In this document: one piece after another, positions 4,777 through 44,958 of the stretch | How the letters are laid out: each line of letters opens with the position of its first letter | How positions within the stretch are numbered: position 1 is the first letter of the stretch | DNA from: Candidatus Brocadia sp. WS118 | Lineage (GTDB): Bacteria > Planctomycetota > Brocadiia > Brocadiales > Brocadiaceae | DNA length: 57,810 bases | Assembly (NCBI GenBank): GCA_007618135.1 | Contig: PHFX01000010.1 | Span: 1-57,810 of the forward strand | Direction: 5' to 3' | Notes under the pieces: generated by a model | The model's database searches: none | The model's input: only the letters and a program-made list of their open reading frames with translations | What the model was told of the DNA's origin: nothing | Position numbers and translations under genes: made by a program

Positions 4777-5517
4777 CTAACCATGATCCTTCGCAGTCGC
4801 CAAAATAAGTAAATGAACAGACCTGGCACCGGATTGTTTTAATATTTTTGAACACTCCGATGCAGTTACCCCGGTAGTTAATACGTCGTCTACCAGTAAT
4901 ATCCGCTTTTTTTGAAACGATTTTGGATCATGTACACGAAATGCATTGTGGATGTTTATCTGTCGTTGTTTTCTTGATAACTGGGTCTGTGACGCGGTAT
5001 TTTTGACACGGTAGAGATTATTTACCGATACCGGTTTTGAAAAATACTGTTGAATTCCCCGTGCCAAAAGTTCTGCCTGATTGAAACCCCGGCGCATTTT
5101 TTTGATCCAATGAAGTGGCACTGGCACTATGATATCAATGTTTGGAACAATTTCTTTCAGGTTTTCCTGTGCCAGCATCATATCATTTAGCGTATTACAT
5201 AAAAATCTTTGTCCCGAGTATTTAAATTTATGGATCAATGTTTTCATAGCACCGTCATAATACGTAACGGATGTTAATGTGCTGAAAGGGAGATTCCGTT
5301 CTTTGCATGCCATACACCCTTCTGCTGTCGAAACCGTGTGAGGCCCCAGGGCGGTACCGCATCGGACACAATGAGAATTGCTGATGTAGGAAATACCTTT
5401 TGTGCAATCCTTACAGATATAAAGTTCATAGGAACTGTTTAAATTATTATTGCAATGGAGACAGGATCGGGAATAGAAGATATCCAAAAAGGCATGGAGA
5501 TATCCATGTATAATCAT
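4777..5517 (-). CDS. ComF family phosphoribosyltransferase-like protein
   Basis: The 246-residue protein has the ComF layout: an N-terminal cysteine-rich zinc-binding part (C19, C22, C35, C38, C50, C53, C68, C71) and a C-terminal type I phosphoribosyltransferase fold with the PRPP loop VDDVLTTG at 209-216. ComF proteins are linked to DNA uptake and, in helicobacters and Gram-positives, to handling of incoming single strands; in many Gram-negatives the role is undefined. The ATG at 5517 has a GGGGAA ribosome-binding site six bases upstream. It is followed on the same strand by no close gene; the Lpt permease gene lies 80 bases upstream. Confidence 0.88.
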   Translation of the reverse strand: MIIHGYLHAFLDIFYSRSCLHCNNNLNSSYELYICKDCTKGISYISNSHCVRCGTALGPHTVSTAEGCMACKERNLPFSTLTSVTYYDGAMKTLIHKFKYSGQRFLCNTLNDMMLAQENLKEIVPNIDIIVPVPLHWIKKMRRGFNQAELLARGIQQYFSKPVSVNNLYRVKNTASQTQLSRKQRQINIHNAFRVHDPKSFQKKRILLVDDVLTTGVTASECSKILKQSGARSVHLLILATAKDHG

Positions 5518-5597: not shown

Positions 5598-6671
5598 CTA
5601 CATTCTCATCATGTCAAAAAACAGCAATCCTACAGATCCGAATATGACGTGGGGTAACCATGCTGCTAATATGGGATGGATCGTTCCTATATTACCAAGA
5701 CTGGTACATACGAAAGACAGAGCATAAAAGAAGCCACAGATAAAAACGCACAGGCCCACACGGAGAAATAAATTTCTGCTTAACCGTTCGAATCCGATAA
5801 CAAGAGGTATACCAAGCAAGAGCAGCACAAAGTGTGTAAGGGTATAAGCAATTCTGGAATGAAATAACACATGGTTTCTTGGGTTATTTGGCTCGTTTTT
5901 ACACAGTTCTTGTAATTGATTAAAATTCAACAAACTGGGGTCAAGCTTTATCTCCCCCAGTTCTGCAGGTGTTATGGTGGACGTAAATTCCAGACTATCA
6001 AGTTGTTCTATGGGTGCAACCCACTTTCCTTGTTCATTGTAAACGTGTTTTATTACCTTGCTTAGCAACCATGTATTGTTTCCTAACCACCTGCCTTCAT
6101 CAGCACTGATGGTAAATTTCTTCTTTTTGTTTTCATATCTTCCCAGGATAAATACCGATTGCATCGTTTGCGTTTTATTATGGTATTTCCAGATGCGTAC
6201 TAACGTGCCGTTTTCCTTGTCATCCAAAAGGAGGTTCCGATGGATATTATCACTGAATGAAGTTTGCTTTAAGGTTTCTAGCCTTTCCGCAAAACGTGGA
6301 ATAATCCATTCCTGATCCCCAAATGATGCAAAGGACATGAATACTGTAATAATAAAGATCGGAGCTAAAATCCGGTACAAGGAGATACCGGCGACCTGCA
6401 TGGCCAGTATTTCACGATTTTTGGATAATCTTACTAGGACAATACCAATAGCAATCAAAGTAATTGCAGGAAAAAATTGGAAGATGAGGACAGGAAAGAG
6501 GTACAGGTAGTAACGCATTCCCGTACCAAAGGCATCACCTCCCATATCAATAAATTCACCCAGTTTTTGAAGGAGGTCAGCAATGATATAAATTCCGGAA
6601 ATAATGAGAAGACACATGAAAAACGTCGGAATAAAAGCCTTCAATATATAGTTATCAAGCCGGGAAAACAT
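5598..6671 (-). CDS. LptF/LptG family permease (YjgP/YjgQ)
   Basis: This 357-residue protein matches the permease subunits that, with the LptB ATPase, extract lipopolysaccharide from the inner membrane. It shows three membrane segments in the first 120 residues, a central periplasmic domain of about 150 residues (beta-jellyroll in the family), and three C-terminal membrane segments after residue 270. Family members usually occur as an adjacent LptF/LptG pair, but only one is present here, so the partner would be elsewhere. The start lies four bases after the folK stop, with an AAAGG that overlaps that stop, so the two are co-transcribed. I cannot say from sequence alone whether it is LptF or LptG. 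Confidence 0.87.
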   Translation of the reverse strand: MFSRLDNYILKAFIPTFFMCLLIISGIYIIADLLQKLGEFIDMGGDAFGTGMRYYLYLFPVLIFQFFPAITLIAIGIVLVRLSKNREILAMQVAGISLYRILAPIFIITVFMSFASFGDQEWIIPRFAERLETLKQTSFSDNIHRNLLLDDKENGTLVRIWKYHNKTQTMQSVFILGRYENKKKKFTISADEGRWLGNNTWLLSKVIKHVYNEQGKWVAPIEQLDSLEFTSTITPAELGEIKLDPSLLNFNQLQELCKNEPNNPRNHVLFHSRIAYTLTHFVLLLLGIPLVIGFERLSRNLFLRVGLCVFICGFFYALSFVCTSLGNIGTIHPILAAWLPHVIFGSVGLLFFDMMRM

Positions 6672-6675
6672 ACCT

Positions 6676-7155
6676 TTATGCTGTAGTCAATAATGAAGTT
6701 TGGAGTTCTCGATATAATTGAAGCACCGTTTTTTGTAACTGGGGATGAACAACAGTGGATGCAATCTCAACCAATGGCTCTAGAACAAATAACCGCATAT
6801 GCATCAAGGGATGCGGTATTTTCAGACGCTCTTCATCAATGATTGTATCGCCATAGAGCAACAGATCAATATCGATCAGCCTTGGCCCCCATGTTACCGT
6901 ACGGACCCGTCCCATGAGGGCTTCGATACTTTGAAACCGTTCAAGCAATTCATGAGGAGACAGTGATGTTTTTACCTCAAGAGCAGCATTCAAAAACATC
7001 GGCTGTGGCGGACCACCAACTGGTACCGTCTCGTAAAACCGGGAACATCTCACCGGCTGTATTCCCCGGATAGCAATAAGATGTCCGTAAGCAGTATACA
7101 GATTTTCCTCCCGGTTTCCTATGTTGGAACCTAATCCAATATATACAGGTATCAT
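6676..7155 (-). CDS. folK: 6-hydroxymethyl-7,8-dihydropterin pyrophosphokinase
   Basis: FolK transfers pyrophosphate from ATP to 6-hydroxymethyl-7,8-dihydropterin, the step before dihydropteroate synthase in folate synthesis. At 159 residues it has normal length. It carries the N-terminal IGLGSNIGNRE motif, the FLNAA block, and the signature WGPRLIDIDLLLYGD, in which D95 and D97 match the two magnesium-binding aspartates of the E. coli enzyme. No other folate gene is adjacent; it sits between a radical SAM gene and the Lpt permease gene in one minus-strand run. Confidence 0.95.
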   Translation of the reverse strand: MIPVYIGLGSNIGNREENLYTAYGHLIAIRGIQPVRCSRFYETVPVGGPPQPMFLNAALEVKTSLSPHELLERFQSIEALMGRVRTVTWGPRLIDIDLLLYGDTIIDEERLKIPHPLMHMRLFVLEPLVEIASTVVHPQLQKTVLQLYRELQTSLLTTA

Positions 7156-7203
7156 AAAAATTTTTCCCAGTTTCTTTAAAAAATGCTTATTCGTTGTGAA
7201 GAT

Positions 7204-9051
7204 TTACACAGCGCAAAAATTCTGAGAACGTGTGCAGCTCCCACATTCCGGACATTCAGCGGTACGGCAATCGGGGGTAACTTCCTCATGAAAAGATCTT
7301 TGCCGTTCCTCTATAAGAAATGGCTTTACCACGCCACAACTGATATGATCCCACGGGAAGACCTCATCATCGTCCCTTTGCCGGTGCACATAAAAACTCC
7401 AATCTACCCCGGCCTTTTGAAAGGCGTCCATCCATTTTTGAAAGTGGAAATGTTCTTCCCATGCGTCAAATTTACAGCCATCCTGCCATGCCTGATAAAT
7501 GACCTTCCCCAATCTTCTGTCTCCCCGTGCAAAGACACCTTCCAGAATGCTGCGTTCTGCATTATGGAATTTAATCCGAATGCATTTGCGCCGGATTCGA
7601 TCAAACAACCGGTTTCTGATCTCTTTTATCCGTTGAAGGGTAACCATCGGATGCCATTGGAAAGGGGTATGCGCCTTTGGCACAAAGGGTGCAATGCTGA
7701 TGTTCACTTGTCCAAAATTACCGCTGATATCCTTTTTCAATTCAGAGATCTTATAGGCGAGCCTTGCAATGGCATCAATATCATTATCTGTCTCGGTGGG
7801 AAGTCCAACCATAAAATAGAGCTTTACCAGATTCCACCCCTGTTTAAATGCCTCCCCGACCCCCTTGTACAGGTCTTCGTCGGTAATATCTTTATTAATG
7901 ATCCTCCGCAGGGTCTGAGTTGCTGCCTCCGGTGCAAGGGTGAGTCCGGACTTCCGGACGACGTTCAGCAAGGAGGGCAAGAGAATAAGCTGCTCATTCA
8001 CGCGCAGGGAGGGGAAGGAAATGTTTACCTGTCTTGGGTGAAATGCTCTGTTCATCTGTTCCATTAAGCTTGATAAGGCCGGATAGTCGCTAATGGAAAG
8101 AGATGCCAGGGAAATCTCATTATGCCCGGTATGTGCATAACAAAGTTCGGCCAGATTAACGATGTTCTCTACGGTGCGAGGCCGGGTAGGCCGTTTACTC
8201 ATGCCGGCCTGGCAAAACCGGCACCCCTGGGTACAGCCGCGCATAACCTCTATCGTGATCCGGTCGTGAATCGTTTTTACATAAGGCACAATCGGTTTTG
8301 TTGGGAAATAGGTTGTATTTAAATCCTCTACCGATGCGGACCGGATAAGAGGTGGCAGGCCATCGATCCTTGGCCGTATCTGCTGTATGGTATTATCCCA
8401 ACCATAGGTAACATCGAACAATGATGGAACATAAGCATTTTTCAGGGTTCGGGCGATAGAAACCATCTTTTCCCTGCGGGAGAGGTTTGTCCGCTTCATG
8501 TCCTTCCATAAGGCAATGAACTGTGGCAGGCATTCCTCACCGTCTCCAACGAGAAATATGTCAATAAAATCTGCCAGTGGTTCCGGAGAAATAGCGGCAG
8601 GTCCTCCGGCAATAATGAGAGGATCTGCTTCGCTTCGTTCCGATGCTATGACAGGAATCTCCGAGAGATGTAACATATTTAAGATATTCGTATAGGAGAG
8701 TTCGTATTGAATCGAAAAACCTATGATGTCAAATTCCCGCAAAGGCGTATAGGTTTCAAGGGAAAAGAGGGGAATTTGGTGCTTTCTCATGAGGGATTCC
8801 ATATCATCTAACGGTGCGAAAACTCTTTCGCAAACCGTATCCTCCCTTTCGTTGAGCAGTCCATAAAGAATCTGGATACCCAGGTGAGACATGCCGATGC
8901 TGTAGGTATCAGGGAACGCCAATACCACTTTTATCCCGGTATCGGTATGCTCCTTAACAATAGAATTCCATTCTCCGCCAATATACTGTCCGGGCATTTC
9001 TACCAACGGCAAGAGATTTTCTGTTATAAAGAGTTTTAAAGCATTCTTCAT
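7204..9051 (-). CDS. B12-binding/radical SAM protein, TIGR03960-like
   Basis: From the ATG at 9051 the protein has about 615 residues. It opens with the family block LPLVEMPGQYIGGE, followed by a cobalamin-binding-like domain (LIIAGGPAAISPEPL, VGDGEE) and a radical SAM core with cysteines C273, C277 and C280 (GCTQGCRFC). The C-terminal tail is cysteine-rich (AECPECGSCTRSQNFC). TIGR03960 proteins are widespread and often encoded next to a DUF2344 partner and RNase G; neither is adjacent here. The start is chosen by family resemblance, because no strong ribosome-binding site is visible and the frame remains open 33 codons upstream. The reaction of this family is not established. Confidence 0.88.
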   Translation of the reverse strand: MKNALKLFITENLLPLVEMPGQYIGGEWNSIVKEHTDTGIKVVLAFPDTYSIGMSHLGIQILYGLLNEREDTVCERVFAPLDDMESLMRKHQIPLFSLETYTPLREFDIIGFSIQYELSYTNILNMLHLSEIPVIASERSEADPLIIAGGPAAISPEPLADFIDIFLVGDGEECLPQFIALWKDMKRTNLSRREKMVSIARTLKNAYVPSLFDVTYGWDNTIQQIRPRIDGLPPLIRSASVEDLNTTYFPTKPIVPYVKTIHDRITIEVMRGCTQGCRFCQAGMSKRPTRPRTVENIVNLAELCYAHTGHNEISLASLSISDYPALSSLMEQMNRAFHPRQVNISFPSLRVNEQLILLPSLLNVVRKSGLTLAPEAATQTLRRIINKDITDEDLYKGVGEAFKQGWNLVKLYFMVGLPTETDNDIDAIARLAYKISELKKDISGNFGQVNISIAPFVPKAHTPFQWHPMVTLQRIKEIRNRLFDRIRRKCIRIKFHNAERSILEGVFARGDRRLGKVIYQAWQDGCKFDAWEEHFHFQKWMDAFQKAGVDWSFYVHRQRDDDEVFPWDHISCGVVKPFLIEERQRSFHEEVTPDCRTAECPECGSCTRSQNFCAV

Positions 9052-37902: not shown

Positions 37903-40230
37903 GTGCCTAGAGATATTCCTGTAGGGAACGGTTCACTATTGGTTGCATTTGATGCTGATTACAACATCAGGGATTTGTACTATCCGCGGGTAGGGAAGGA
38001 AAATCAGACCCTTGGCTACCCCAGCAGATTTGGCGTATGGACACGTGAAGGTTTTTCGTGGCTCAATGCACAGGATTGGAAGGTTGCCCTGGGATACCTG
38101 AAGGAAACCCTGGTGACAGATGTGCGGGCACTTCATGAAAGACTGGGAATTCAGCTTGTCTGCAATGATGTCGTTGATTTTGAGAAGAGCATCTATATCC
38201 GTAAAGTAACCGTACGGAATCTGAAAAAGGTTGAAAGAGACGTGCGTCTTTTTTTCCATCAGGACTTTAGCGTCATGGAGAACGAGATTGGCGATACGGT
38301 ATTTTACGATGCAAAGCTGAATTGTCTTATTCATTACAAAGGGCCGCGGTATTTTTTGATCAATTGTTCTGCCGAAGATGTATGGGGAGTAAGAGAATAC
38401 GCAACGGGAATTAAGAGACTCCGGGGCGCTGAAGGGACATGGCGTGATGCCGAAGACGGTATCCTGGGTGGCAATCCCATAGCACAGGGATCGGTTGACT
38501 CGACCATCGGCATTTCATTGGAAATTCCAGCCCATGGCGAATCCGTTGTCTATTATTGGATCGCTGCCGGCAGGAATTACGGTGAGGTGGATGCCCTGAA
38601 CGATATCCTTTTACACGATAAACCGCAAAAAATAATCGATAGAACGGAAAGTTTCTGGCAGCATTGGGTAAATAAGGAAGAGTTTAACTTTGGGAATCTG
38701 CCTGCGGATGTAGTTAACCTTTTCAAAAGAAGCCTGTTGGTTCTTGTGACCCAGATAGACAGTGGAGGTGCTATCATTGCGGCAAATGATTCTGATATTA
38801 AGCAATTTGCAAAAGATACCTATAGTTATATGTGGCCACGAGACGGCGCTATGGTCTCCTATGCACTCATGAAGGCCGGATACACAAACGCATGCCGGAA
38901 TTTTTTTAACTTTTGCGCAAACACCATCACTTCCTATAATTTCTGTGCAAGCGTTATGGTGGAAGATGGATTTTTATTGCATAAATACAACCCCGACGGT
39001 TCTTTCGGTAGCTCCTGGCATCCCTGGGTAAAGGGCGAGGAGATACATGTGCCTATCCAGGAAGATGAGACAGCCCTGATCCTCTGGGCAATATGGCGTT
39101 ACTACGATCTGTACCGGAAGATGGATGAGATACGCCCCCTCTATCATTCCTTTGTGGAAAAAGCAGCGGACTTTCTGGTAAGTTATCGCGATGAACTGAC
39201 GGGGTTGCCGCTTCCTTCCTATGATCTGTGGGAAGAAAGGCGCGGTATCCTGTCCTTTACCACAGCCACGGTGTATGGCGGACTCATAGCTGCAGCAAAC
39301 CTTTCTGACATCTTTTATCATACCGAAAAGGCCTTCTTATACCGGGAAACTGCAGACCAGATTAAAAAGGCAATTGATCAATATCTTTACAGCGAGAAAC
39401 ACCAGAGATTCCTGCGAATGATCTATCCAAAGAAAGACGGAGGATATGAAATTGACGCAACCATTGATGCCAGTTTATATGGAATGTTCGCTTTCGGCGT
39501 ATACGATCCCTTTGACGTCAAGGTCCAAAATACCATGAAAGCAATTGAAGATGCCTTGTGGGTCAAGACCAAGATAGGCGGAATTGCCCGGTATGAAAAT
39601 GACGGATATCAGCGTGTCGGAAACGACGGCTCGATTCCGGGAAATCCGTGGATCATCTGCACTATGTGGCTGGCACAATACTATGTATCAACGGCAAAGT
39701 CTGTCGAAGATCTCGAACGGGTAGTGAATTATCTGCGATGGGCGGTATTACGTGCATTACCCTCCGGAGTGCTGGCAGAGCAGATAAACCCATTTACCGG
39801 AGAGCCCATTTCTGTTTCCCCCCTGACATGGAGCCACGCCACGGTAGTGCAAACGGTAATGGATTATCTGGAAAAATTGCAGGAATTGCATACGTGCGGA
39901 CAATGCAGGCGGTCGATCTTCCGTTATGATCGGGCAGGTCGTCAGCAAGTCAAAAAACATTCCACAATGCATACGGGTATAATTTCGGACACGGAACACG
40001 TCCAATACCTTGATCAGGTAAATATAAGAAAAGGCCGTGGGGTCGTCAGCATGAGTATTGACCAGAGAAAGTGTGTGGGTTGCGGAATCTGCGTTGAGAA
40101 CTCACATGGGGCCATGGACGTGGTTGAGGACAAGGCAAAGATTATTGCCGAAAAAGCAACAGACTGGAATATCCCGTCAGGATTTGAAAAATGCTGCCCG
40201 GTAGGGGCAATTACGGTAAAAACTGCTTAA
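37903..40230 (+). CDS. GH15 glucoamylase-like hydrolase with C-terminal ferredoxin domain
   Basis: Residues 1 to about 660 form a GH15 enzyme: an N-terminal beta-sandwich opening PRDIPVGNGSLLVAFDADY, the YMWPRDGAMV block in the (alpha/alpha)6 barrel, the general acid in DLWEERRG (about residue 443) and the general base in LAEQINPFTGE (about 625). It should release glucose from glycogen-like glucans or a related disaccharide. Residues 717-775 form a separate single-cluster ferredoxin domain with C724, C727, C730 and a CP at C765. A 60-residue hydrophilic linker joins them. The GTG start follows AGGAAG with six bases spacing. No signal peptide is visible, so the protein is cytoplasmic. Confidence 0.88.
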   Translation: MPRDIPVGNGSLLVAFDADYNIRDLYYPRVGKENQTLGYPSRFGVWTREGFSWLNAQDWKVALGYLKETLVTDVRALHERLGIQLVCNDVVDFEKSIYIRKVTVRNLKKVERDVRLFFHQDFSVMENEIGDTVFYDAKLNCLIHYKGPRYFLINCSAEDVWGVREYATGIKRLRGAEGTWRDAEDGILGGNPIAQGSVDSTIGISLEIPAHGESVVYYWIAAGRNYGEVDALNDILLHDKPQKIIDRTESFWQHWVNKEEFNFGNLPADVVNLFKRSLLVLVTQIDSGGAIIAANDSDIKQFAKDTYSYMWPRDGAMVSYALMKAGYTNACRNFFNFCANTITSYNFCASVMVEDGFLLHKYNPDGSFGSSWHPWVKGEEIHVPIQEDETALILWAIWRYYDLYRKMDEIRPLYHSFVEKAADFLVSYRDELTGLPLPSYDLWEERRGILSFTTATVYGGLIAAANLSDIFYHTEKAFLYRETADQIKKAIDQYLYSEKHQRFLRMIYPKKDGGYEIDATIDASLYGMFAFGVYDPFDVKVQNTMKAIEDALWVKTKIGGIARYENDGYQRVGNDGSIPGNPWIICTMWLAQYYVSTAKSVEDLERVVNYLRWAVLRALPSGVLAEQINPFTGEPISVSPLTWSHATVVQTVMDYLEKLQELHTCGQCRRSIFRYDRAGRQQVKKHSTMHTGIISDTEHVQYLDQVNIRKGRGVVSMSIDQRKCVGCGICVENSHGAMDVVEDKAKIIAEKATDWNIPSGFEKCCPVGAITVKTA

Positions 40231-40240
40231 AGGCCTAAAT

Positions 40241-40350
40241 CAGGCTGCCTTCGGCAGCGACTTTAAGTTCCCCTCATGGGTAGGACAAGCGTCCCCGCTT
40301 GTCATCATAATGTCAGGCGAGGACGCCTGGCCTGCCATATAGGCTGAGGG
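40241..40350. repeat. Dispersed repeat, copy 1
   Basis: This segment shares its order and much of its sequence with 53431-53541, including AGGCTGCCTT, an identical GGTAGGACAAGCGTCCCCGC followed by TTGTCAT, ATGTCA, GGGGACG or GAGGACG, and ACCATAT or GCCATAT. The short inverted element ACAAGCG/CGCTTGT within it can fold. It follows the glucoamylase gene stop. Confidence 0.7.
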
Positions 40351-40447
40351 TGTGGTGTGAAAAATTTACACACCCCTTTTCTCTTCTTTTTAGTGGGGAA
40401 TCATAAAACGGTCTAATTCTTAAAATTCTCTTCCGAGGTAATAACCG

Positions 40448-41056
40448 ATGCCGAAGGGAAAAGGTAAAAAAACCGAGCAGATACATCATGCAAAGGCGAA
40501 GGTATATCGTCATGCTGGAGCGGATTCCCCTTTACGTCCGGATGTGGGCACACAGGCGCAGTTCAGGAAGAACCCCCCCCAAAAAACTTACCGTTATGAT
40601 TCTTCGCTTTTTCCTGCCCTGGACTGGGACGGTCAAAACTCTGCACGTGAACTGGGAAAGTGGCTTATTGCCATGATTGAAAAGGCGGCTGCGCTTCCCG
40701 CGCCACATACCTTTGATAAACCCCAGGAATTCAAGAATTCTGCCGGGCATGTTATTTCCACCGCCAGGGGACTGCATGATGCAGTTGAGCAGTTGAAACG
40801 TTTTGGCAAACCATTTCTTAACTGGACGGGCAAGGCAGAGCGGCTTTCTTTTGACGTGCCGACGCTACCGTTCTTTGTCCATGAGCGTCTCCCCACAAAG
40901 GCAATTATTGAAACCCTGAAAGACCACAGGAAACATGAGAGACCTAAACAATTGTCGTTGTTTGATCTCTTTGCCGATGAACAGAGATCGGTTACCGACC
41001 AGGTGTTGAAGGCTTATGAATGCACAGAAGGTAAAGAATTGGACTCAGAGTGTTGA
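40448..41056 (+). pseudogene. N-terminal fragment of a type III-like DNA methyltransferase
   Basis: The 202-residue frame opens PKGKGKKTEQIHHAKAKVY and continues through WTGKAERLSFDVPTLPFFVH and HERLPTKAIIETLKDHRKHE to a tail QVLKAYE. These blocks match the N-terminal part of adenine-specific DNA methyltransferases of type III-like systems, which normally continue with a motif such as LILGDSL and DPPY, over several hundred more residues. Here the frame ends at TGA 41054-41056 and no catalytic motif follows before the sensor kinase gene. It is most likely a truncated relic; a stand-alone small protein is possible but less likely. Confidence 0.65.
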
Positions 41057-41243
41057 GATTGTTAAAATAATTAAAAATGATTATTATCAATGGAGAAGAA
41101 AAGGAGCGTTGGAATTACCGTTGAATGAAAAGTTGAAGGCATTGCAAATTCAAAGAAGAAATAAACACGTCCCTTGCCTCTCTCAAGAGGGGAATTAAGA
41201 AATCCACGCACTGGGGAAAAAACTAAACTTTTAGAGCATATTC

Positions 41244-43673
41244 ATGAAGATCAGACATAAACTTGTGATTCTTTTGGCTGTGTTGCTGGTTATCCTGGAC
41301 AGCGCGCTCGTATTTTTTGTTTACAACCGCACACGCCGGGAATTTATTAAGGAGGTCCGGGAAAAGGCGAAATTAATCGCTACGGAATTAGAGACCACCA
41401 GGAATTACCTTGCATCCGCTCTGCAAAGTTCAAAAATTGGCATCACGGAACAGACAAAATTTTTTATCCCCGCCGTTTCCGCCCATGCCATCGGGACAAA
41501 ATTTTCCGAAAAGACGGGCTATATTATTAAACAAACCAGCAGGAAATATAGGAATTTGTTTAATAAACCAGACCTCTTTGAAGAAGATGCACTCAGAAAG
41601 ATGGAGGAAGACCCCAATCTTTCCGAATTCTGGTCGGATGACATTATTAATGGGAAAAGGGTTGAGCGGTATCTTTACGCCTTATACGTAAAAGAGGATT
41701 GTCTCCTTTGCCACGGCTCTCAGGAGAATGCACCGGAATTTATCCGGAAGAATTATACGGTAGGCTACGATTATAAGGTCGGAGAATTGCGGGGAGCTAT
41801 CAGTGTTATTATTCCAAAGGAAATTGCCGAACGACAACTTGCAGCAAATGTCATCTTCTTTACTACCGCAAGTTCCGTCAGCATCTTGATGATCGTAGCG
41901 ATCATTTTTCTGACCACGGGAAAGTTGATGAGGCCGATTGAACGATTAACAGCAGCCGTGGCTGCTGTATCAAAGACAGGCGATCTTACCACGAAAGTGG
42001 ATATATTGTCCAAAGATGAGGTGGGACAGCTTGGGAGGGCATTTAATGACATGTCTACCAAATTGCAATCAACATATGCTACCCTGGAACAACGCATTGC
42101 TGAGAAGACCGCTCATCTGCAGCAGGCAATTTCGGCATTAGAACGGGCAAACAAACTGAAATCCGAGTTTCTGGCGAATATGTCACATGAACTCCGCACA
42201 CCACTCAATGCGATTATCGGCTTTGCAGAAGTATTGCGTGACAAGATCGCGGGCGACCTGAATGAAGAGCAGACGGACTTCGTGAATGATATCCACAGCA
42301 GTGGTTGCCACCTCCTCCAAATGATTAACGATATCTTAGATTTGTCCAAGATTGAGGCAGGCAAGATGGAACTTCAGTACGGAATTTTTCTTGTCACCGA
42401 GGCCATTGATGAGGTGCATACCATACTAAAGGGACTAGCCAGTAAAAAACATCTGGAATTAAAGACCGTAATACTGACGGAGGTAAAAAATATCGAGGCG
42501 GATCGCGTCAAATTTAAACAAGTCTTATATAATCTGCTGTCAAATGCCATAAAATTCACACCGGAGAACGGCAAGATCATCTTAGAGGCTGGTGTCATGG
42601 ATGATATGCTGCAGGTATCGGTATCTGACACGGGAATTGGGATGAAGTCAGATGATCAGGCAAAAGTATTTAAAGAGTTCTGGCAGGCAGACAGTTCTTT
42701 CGCCCGGAAATATGAGGGGACAGGGCTGGGGCTTGCCCTGACGAAAAGAATTGTTGAGATGCATGGGGGAAAAATCTGGTTTGAAAGTGAATACGGGAAG
42801 GGAAGTGTCTTTTATTTTGTATTACCCCTCAAAGCCCCGGTTACAACAACAGAACCGAAAGAGATCAAGACCAAGCCGCGTCAAACAATACCTGTAGGAG
42901 AAAAGGATGCAAAAACGGTTTTGGTTGTGGAAGATGATCGCATGGCTGCAGACCTTCTTACCCTGTATTTGACGAATGCAGGGTATAATGTTGTCGTGGC
43001 TGCGGATGGTGAGGAGGCTATCAAAAAGGCAAAGGAATGCCAGCCATTTTTAATTACCCTGGATATTATGTTGCCCAAAAAAGACGGATGGGATGTTCTT
43101 TCCGAACTCAAAAATTCTCAGGACGTTGCTTCCATACCCGTAATTATCGTGTCGATGGTGGACAATAAAGATCTTGGCTTTAGCCTGGGAGCCGTGGAAT
43201 ATTTAATAAAACCCATCGATAGAGTAAAACTCATTGATATTGTAAATAGTTGTATTCCTGCTGAGAGAGACAAGGGCAAATCTATGAAAATATTAGTCGT
43301 CGATGATGATGAAAAGGCCGTTAAGTATATGAGCTCCGTTCTTGAAAATGCAGGTTTTGATGTACTGAGTGCGTACAGTGGTAAAGCAGGGATCAATCTT
43401 GCCATCAATAATAATCCGGATCTTATGATTCTTGACCTTATGATGCCTGATGTCAGCGGTTTCGACGTAGTCGAGCAGCTCAGGATACACCCAACGGCGA
43501 AGAGAATTCCTATTATTATCTGCTCTGCAAAGGATATTACTCCAGAAGACAAAAAGATACTAAATGGCCATATTTTAGCCATTGTCCAAAAGAGCAGCCA
43601 TACAAAAGAAGCTCTTCTTTCTACGATTAAGAAGATAGAACAGTTACATGTTCATAAAGATGATATGCAATAA
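41244..43673 (+). CDS. Haem-sensing hybrid histidine kinase with two receiver domains
   Basis: The 809-residue sensor has a membrane segment (8-27), a periplasmic Tll0287-like/DUF3365 domain with a c-type haem site C153-x2-C156-H157 (CLLCHG), a second segment (about 202-225), HAMP (225-280), a coiled coil, a HisKA domain with H315 in SHELRTPLN, an ATPase domain (about 425-535, with DTGIGM and GTGLGLAL), and two receiver domains (about 560-680 and 690-800, phospho-aspartates in [11 protein letters not shown] and [11 protein letters not shown]). The haem suggests response to redox, NO or another ligand of periplasmic haem. Two stand-alone receivers follow, so a phosphorelay is likely. Confidence 0.92.
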
Positions 43674-43841: not shown

Positions 43842-44237
43842 ATGTCTGACAATAATGTGATGGTTGTTGAAGACAATGAGAAAAACAGAAAACTCATGCG
43901 CGTCGTGCTCAAGGCAAAAGGATATAATGTGATTGAAGCAACTACCGGAGAGGAGGCATTAAACATTTTAAAGAACCAAAAACCCAATATTATCCTTATG
44001 GACATCCAGCTCCCAGGGATAGACGGTCTCACCCTGATAAAGCAGATCAAGGCTGACGCCGTTACAAAAGAAATCCCCATCATCGCAGTTACTGCCTATG
44101 CAATGAAGGGGGATGAACAAAAGATCCTGGATACGGGCTGTGAAGCATATATGAGCAAACCGATCAATACCCAGGAATTACCGCACATGATTGAAAAATA
44201 TATTAAAAAAAGACAGGAAAACCATGAACAAACCTAA
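43842..44237 (+). CDS. Single-domain response regulator
   Basis: A receiver domain of 131 residues with little else: acidic pair in VVEDNEKN, phospho-aspartate in LMDIQLPGIDG, conserved threonine/serine in AVTAYAMKGD and lysine in YMSKPINTQEL. The GIDG and AYAMKGD patterns resemble receivers of phosphorelays fed by hybrid kinases such as the one upstream. No output domain is attached. Its stop overlaps the next gene by 14 bases. Confidence 0.93.
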   Translation: MSDNNVMVVEDNEKNRKLMRVVLKAKGYNVIEATTGEEALNILKNQKPNIILMDIQLPGIDGLTLIKQIKADAVTKEIPIIAVTAYAMKGDEQKILDTGCEAYMSKPINTQELPHMIEKYIKKRQENHEQT

Positions 44238-44958
44238 AATATTAGTGGCGGATGATATCAAGCAAAATGTAAAACTCCTTCGGGTAATTCTGACTGCCTC
44301 CGAATATGATGTCATTGAGGCTTATGATGGTGAAGAGGCGTTGGAAAAAGCAAGAAGCGAACATCCCGATTTAATATTATTGGATATTATGATGCCAAAG
44401 GTGACCGGATATGAGGTGTGCCAGAAGCTGCGTGCAGATGAAACAACCAGGAATATTCCTATTGTCATGATTACTGCCTTGCATGAGATGAACGACCGGA
44501 TCAAAGGGATTGAAGCGGGGGCTGATGATTTTATTAGCAAACCTTTTAATAAAACAGAATTGCTTGCAAGAATAAAATCATTACTGCGTATACGGCAGGT
44601 AACAGAGAAGCCGGAAAAAAAGGACGAAACGCGTGTTTTAGAATCAATCTTGTCTGACCTGAACGAAGGTATCATTGTTACTGATGGACAATGGAAGATC
44701 CGGAATATGAATAAAATGGCGCATGAACTTTTACATATCCAGGAAACGGATATGAAAGATACAGATTTTTTAATACACTTATCACGTATGAAATTGTCTT
44801 TGCCTGTAAAGGTAATTACGAATACTCAGGAAAAAATTACTGATTTTCAGATTACCGATTCAAATACAGAAGGTCTTCCATCAATAAGTGCAAGGATGAC
44901 AAAGATACTGAATGAACAGGGAAATGTAGTTGGAATTACCTTTACTTTAAAAAAATAA
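44224..44958 (+). CDS. Response regulator with C-terminal PAS-like domain
   Basis: From the ATG at 44224 the protein has 244 residues: a receiver domain with phospho-aspartate in LLDIMMPKVTG and lysine in FISKPFNKTE, then a second part (about 140-244) whose LNEGIIVTDGQWKIRNMNKM fits a PAS-type sensor fold. There is no DNA-binding, GGDEF or phosphatase output. AGGAAA lies upstream at suitable spacing. Together with the preceding receiver and hybrid kinase it forms a signalling cluster without an obvious effector. Confidence 0.88.
   Translation: MNKPKILVADDIKQNVKLLRVILTASEYDVIEAYDGEEALEKARSEHPDLILLDIMMPKVTGYEVCQKLRADETTRNIPIVMITALHEMNDRIKGIEAGADDFISKPFNKTELLARIKSLLRIRQVTEKPEKKDETRVLESILSDLNEGIIVTDGQWKIRNMNKMAHELLHIQETDMKDTDFLIHLSRMKLSLPVKVITNTQEKITDFQITDSNTEGLPSISARMTKILNEQGNVVGITFTLKK

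Follow-up and report, generated by a model that had tools for sequence, protein, structure and literature searches.

The window analysed here, a stretch of 57,810 nucleotides from Candidatus Brocadia sp. WS118, contains a gene (positions 37903-40230, + strand; referred to below as GH15-Fd) in which a glycoside hydrolase of family GH15 is joined to a single-cluster ferredoxin (Fd). The fusion is real, as dozens of assemblies made independently of one another, some of them complete genomes, show the same architecture. It is a new combination of known parts, and no published description of a GH15-ferredoxin architecture was found in the open-access literature. Together with a translationally coupled c-haem kinase, the fusion suggests that anammox cells tie their stored glucose polymers to the redox or nitric oxide (NO) state of the cell.

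The gene forms a single open frame of 775 aa with a GTG start and the sequence AAGGAAG upstream of it. The preliminary description of this DNA had proposed a complete GH15 enzyme with both catalytic acids, and this is borne out by our analyses. The GH15 part (residues 1-660; 37903..39882, + strand) consists of an N-terminal beta-sandwich followed by an (alpha/alpha)6 barrel, and residues 285-651 match the Pfam family PF00723 with an E value of 2.5e-31 (109.5 bits against a cut-off of 22). Residues 12-656 also match TIGR01577 with an E value of 7e-100, yet the score of 335.4 bits is below the curated cut-off of 820.7, and the score with the NCBIfam model TIGR01535 (99.8 bits) is likewise below its cut-off of 741.9; hence, a named specificity, such as that of an oligosaccharide amylase, cannot be claimed. 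In a profile of 77 homologues, in all of which they are invariant, residues E444 and E626 align with E438 and E636 of the Thermoanaerobacterium glucoamylase 1lf6, the catalytic general acid and base of that enzyme. The AlphaFold2 model of the fusion protein (pLDDT 83, pTM 0.86) contains the (alpha/alpha)6 barrel with its N-terminal beta domain; the alignment used for this model included diverse homologues, as one limited to 19 close orthologues gave a pLDDT of 50. Its best structural matches, all of them over residues 1-659, are 9ju0 (a dextran dextrinase; Z 37.9, 602 residues, rmsd 3.2), 1lf6 (Z 33.6, 592 residues, rmsd 3.4), and 1ug9. The two-domain fold and the catalytic acids are thus shared with 1lf6, 9ju0, and the TIGR01577 amylases, whereas the identity to the solved GH15 enzymes is only about 20% and the CxxC tail, an insertion containing C348 and the C-terminal ferredoxin are additional features of the fusion protein. 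This insertion of about 10 residues (344-353, SYNFCASVMV; 38932..38961, + strand) lies immediately before the HKYNPDG motif. It is common to the clade members that were examined (PYNFCASVMV-like), including the ferredoxin-less L019 and L020/L103, with C348 invariant, and it is missing from all 53 of the aligned non-fused GH15 sequences. C348 and its surrounding insertion are a plausible candidate for a control site of the hydrolase.

The GH15 part is followed by a CxxC tail (residues 661-686, HTCGQCRRSIFRYDR; 39883..39960, + strand), in which C665 and C668 are invariant among the orthologues, and a related tail is present in one clade of GH15 paralogues. Next to it is a variable linker (residues 687-716; 39961..40050, + strand), for which the confidence of the model is low up to residue 698; residues 678-698, with pLDDT values below 50, are probably disordered, and no docking of the ferredoxin on the GH15 part is predicted by the model with this low-confidence linker. 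The remaining residues (717-775; 40051..40227, + strand) constitute the ferredoxin domain. The in-frame CxxCxxC...CP ferredoxin noted previously, with C724, C727, C730, and C765 as the putative cluster ligands, was found with the residues as described, and the adjacent C764 is also invariant. The pattern CxxCxxC-x33-CCP fits all 28 distinct long orthologue tails. Matches of the single sequence to Pfam are weak (Fer4, E 0.006, under the cut-off). When the orthologous domains were combined into a profile, it matched the ferredoxin of Thermotoga maritima (1rof/1vjw) with an E value of 9.5e-7 over profile positions 1-57 of 59, and the closest solved relatives of this domain are the electron-carrier ferredoxins of T. 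maritima, P. furiosus, and D. africanus. In the model, this region forms strands and helices at pLDDT 67-83; as matches to the GH15 part took up the structure searches, the assignment of the ferredoxin fold is based upon the sequence profile and the predicted secondary structure rather than upon a fold search. The domain is predicted to bind a [4Fe-4S] cluster. It shares the CxxCxxC...CP motif and the near whole-length profile match with 1vjw/1rof and with P. furiosus 2z8q, but differs from these proteins in being joined to a hydrolase and in having an additional invariant cysteine, C764, next to the fourth ligand; of the two cysteines that form the disulfide in the T. maritima ferredoxin, the first is missing here.

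Orthologues were collected from a GTDB scan, a search of relatives and a search of 392 Planctomycetota genomes. Full-length fused orthologues (74-91% identity) are present in Brocadia, Jettenia, Kuenenia, and one genome from another family (a Scalindua-labelled MAG), and some of them are located on complete chromosomes. The 28 distinct tails from these groups retain both the fusion and all of the cluster cysteines; the five ferredoxin cysteines, C665, and C668 are invariant. In the 392-genome search, the orthologue was fused in 21 of the 22 genomes carrying this gene, and the search of relatives revealed the fusion also in G004, G007, and G011. For G017, from which the gene had appeared to be absent, the ferredoxin end of the fusion survives at a contig edge. 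In the other genomes of the 392-genome search with GH15 matches, the matches stop by about model residue 669, except for the unfused paralogues of the Brocadiaceae, whose longer matches include stop codons or extend into tails of unrelated sequence. The ferredoxin tail was found in none of the non-anammox GH15 loci from the GTDB scan, which is pattern-based and biased to close relatives, and six genomes of other phyla with GH15 loci, searched whole, also contained no fusion. Near the non-fused GH15 genes, no convincing ferredoxin-like sequence was seen. The taxonomic range of GH15 proteins with a C-terminal ferredoxin, the mapping of which had been suggested, thus covers Brocadia, Jettenia, Kuenenia, and the Scalindua-like genome, with no case outside of the Brocadiales in the genomes and loci searched, although rare cases elsewhere are possible.

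In the window, an in-frame ATG (40051) opens the ferredoxin, which would accord with an artefact in the form of a frameshift, a misassembly or a pair of genes mistaken for a single one. Such an artefact has a negligible probability in view of the independent assemblies and complete genomes described above, and the comparative data refute it. Neither a stop codon between the domains nor homologues encoded as two genes, the outcomes that would refute the fusion according to the preliminary description, were seen. The ATG at 40051 was also considered as a separate start for a free ferredoxin, and this was rejected; it is present in few orthologues, and several orthologues contain no start codon or Shine-Dalgarno sequence at this position. 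As no internal start of this kind is conserved, the ferredoxin is not a disguised second gene.

The dN/dS ratios, which are rough because synonymous sites are near saturation in many pairs, were lowest in the GH15 part (0.04) and the CxxC tail (0.05), higher in the ferredoxin (0.14), and highest in the linker (0.32); this pattern of substitution clearly points to a relaxed linker and to purifying selection on the ferredoxin. Another possibility is that the ferredoxin is an inert or structural module, whose cluster would do no more than stabilise or anchor the C-terminus, or a hitchhiking fragment captured once and now slowly decaying. Its faster evolution in comparison to the GH15 part and its loss from two lineages accord with this, but the invariance of all five of its cysteines across the full spread of orthologues and the purifying selection do not, and we regard it as improbable. 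Regarding these losses, the orthologues in L019 and L020/L103 end before the ferredoxin while retaining the GH15 part and the kinase. They do not pair in a tree based upon GH15 and kinase sequences, where branch supports near them are low, and their forced pairing is disfavoured (AU p = 0.022); two secondary losses are therefore likelier than an ancestral unfused state. As these orthologues have kept the kinase, the ferredoxin is dispensable for the pairing of GH15 and kinase. Within the same gene, nucleotide identity between the window (37903-40230) and L004 is 87-94% up to about gene base 1890 and drops to 70-80% toward the 3' end, with 56% in the linker, a change which suggests recombination inside the gene.

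The genes surrounding GH15-Fd recur in the order USP, archease, RtcB, (PCMT), GH15-Fd, hybrid kinase, response regulator, and response regulator with PAS. In the window, the hybrid histidine kinase (41244..43673, + strand) is comprised of a Tll0287-like/sCache_heme domain with the haem motif CLLCH, HAMP, HisKA, and HATPase domains and two REC domains, and it is followed at conserved positions by a single-domain response regulator (43842..44237, + strand) and a response regulator with a PAS domain (44191..44958, + strand). The sensor domain, which is joined to the HAMP and kinase domains, matches PF11845 with an E value of 1.7e-34, its CxxCH motif is present in every orthologue listed, and it contains no Cys besides those of CLLCH. 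In most of these anammox lineages (Kuenenia, Jettenia, the Scalindua-like genome, and several Brocadia), the stop codon of GH15-Fd overlaps the ATG of the kinase by 4, 11 or 17 nt. In the window and in other Brocadia, insertions of 0.8-2.6 kb separate the two genes, and in G002 and G005 they are far apart. The insertion in the lineage of the window is of about 1 kb (40231..41243, + strand) and contains an ORF for 202 aa (40448-41056) with no match in Pfam or PHROG; this ORF is also found close to the GH15-Fd orthologue in L004 (84%) and, in part, in L009. In L013, the end of the ferredoxin-coding region is present a second time as a short copy (5258-5341), located about 0.9 kb downstream and immediately in front of the kinase, and it looks like a duplication left behind by an insertion. 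An orthologue of the kinase was detected in 23 of the 24 searched genomes of the family; it is absent from G016, and G006 has only a partial match. The kinase can outlive GH15-Fd, as in the near-complete genome G013 it has been kept while the GH15-Fd gene is gone. Near the non-fused GH15 genes, kinase-like sequence was found at 5 of 70 loci, many of which have limited flanks.

A 2026 preprint reports sensor-like NO binding by sCache_heme domains that are joined to signalling modules, and no axial Cys in the signalling member tested there (PMC12889525). The coupled kinase shares with these proteins the Tll0287-like (DUF3365) domain, the CxxCH motif, the HAMP domain, and the lack of additional sensor cysteines, but it is a hybrid kinase and is coupled to a GH15-Fd gene, a pairing not described in the parts of the preprint consulted. 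By analogy with these proteins, the kinase may bind NO.

Glycoside hydrolases work by acid-base chemistry and redox cofactors are rare among them; GH15 hydrolysis, in particular, requires no electrons. Because of this, and because the genome contains no member of the aldehyde-ferredoxin-oxidoreductase (AOR) family and what GH15-Fd is coupled to is the gene of a haem sensor kinase, we favour a regulatory role for the ferredoxin. We tentatively propose, with somewhat less than even confidence, that GH15-Fd is the enzyme of a redox- or NO-responsive circuit. It would be a cytoplasmic, exo-acting hydrolase of alpha-glucans or oligosaccharides carrying a monocluster [4Fe-4S] ferredoxin on a flexible linker. 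Its substrate may be glycogen or maltooligosaccharide, as a glycogen synthase is present in the genome, and a cytoplasmic location would be consistent with the absence of an apparent signal peptide and with the reported lack of signal peptides on carbohydrate-active enzymes in a Jettenia genome (PMC6828613). A change in the redox state of the cluster, or its loss, brought about by NO, O2 or equilibration with the ferredoxin pool of the cell, would alter how active or stable the hydrolase is or which partners it has, and glucan breakdown would thereby follow the energy state reported by the circuit's own kinase. The translationally coupled c-haem sensor kinase lends indirect support to such redox gating, which had been suggested in the preliminary description. 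The homology to T. maritima-type ferredoxins, which are normally electron carriers and not sensors, counts against a regulatory reading, as do the ferredoxin-less pairs, G013, and the genomes with separated genes. More specifically, glucan use in anammox bacteria could be controlled by an NO-responsive haem-kinase operon, with the hydrolase as its effector arm and the fused [4Fe-4S] cluster as the switch of hydrolase activity, but this proposal is doubtful.

The homology of the ferredoxin to electron carriers leaves an electron-transfer option open. In this case the domain would serve as a tether shuttling low-potential electrons to or from a nearby oxidoreductase, by which the released glucose is oxidised at once, or docking to a ferredoxin-dependent complex such as Rnf, and the long mobile linker would suit such docking; Rnf has been reported in anammox Jettenia (PMC6828613). 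However, the tracked recurring neighbours include no oxidoreductase, and the lack of AOR-family proteins and the chemistry of GH15 enzymes also speak against it, so that this option is rather unlikely as a whole. Docking to an oxidoreductase using the released sugar, the other idea put forward earlier, accordingly has no support from the tracked neighbours or, as regards the AOR family, from the genome, and we rank an attachment to a ferredoxin oxidoreductase that oxidises sugar below a regulatory role. The overlap of the reading frames in Kuenenia, Jettenia, Scalindua-like, and several Brocadia loci would also accord with an adaptor function, in which GH15-Fd signals the availability of glucan or the cytoplasmic redox state to the hybrid kinase by contact, with the ferredoxin as the reporter. 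Against this, the c-haem domain of the kinase must be outside of the cytoplasm, G013 has the kinase but no GH15-Fd, and in L019 and L020 the kinase lies beside ferredoxin-less GH15; this function is distinctly unlikely.

Redox control of glucan metabolism is familiar from chloroplasts, where starch breakdown is controlled through ferredoxin/thioredoxin by dithiol exchange between separate proteins. The idea that redox governs glucan metabolism is common to both systems, whereas in GH15-Fd the hydrolase itself carries a cluster domain. The present results point to a link, in globally important organisms, between carbon storage and a nitrogen-redox metabolism that has NO among its intermediates. 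They provide a testable candidate for the control of glucan reserves in anammox bacteria, on which little literature was found.

In addition to the fused gene, the genome carries two unfused GH15 paralogues (54-56% identity). As these are found in other contexts, the fused GH15 represents a specialised copy with a genetic context of its own. One of the paralogues (L121, 4244-6262, - strand) lies behind pgl and zwf, the genes for 6-phosphogluconolactonase and glucose-6-phosphate dehydrogenase (6516-8037, - strand), a gene arrangement which suggests a flow from glucan to the pentose phosphate pathway; its tail contains the motif CPxCGNSxFYMHRH, resembling a zinc-binding site. Behind the other, in L122 (4162-7170, + strand), the gene of an HDOD/HDIG-type protein begins within about 10 nt. 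In L114 (1483-2214, - strand; contig C285 of G000), a single-cluster ferredoxin is part of a second fusion protein, a permease-like membrane protein of 243 aa with a C-terminal CxxCxxC...CP domain.
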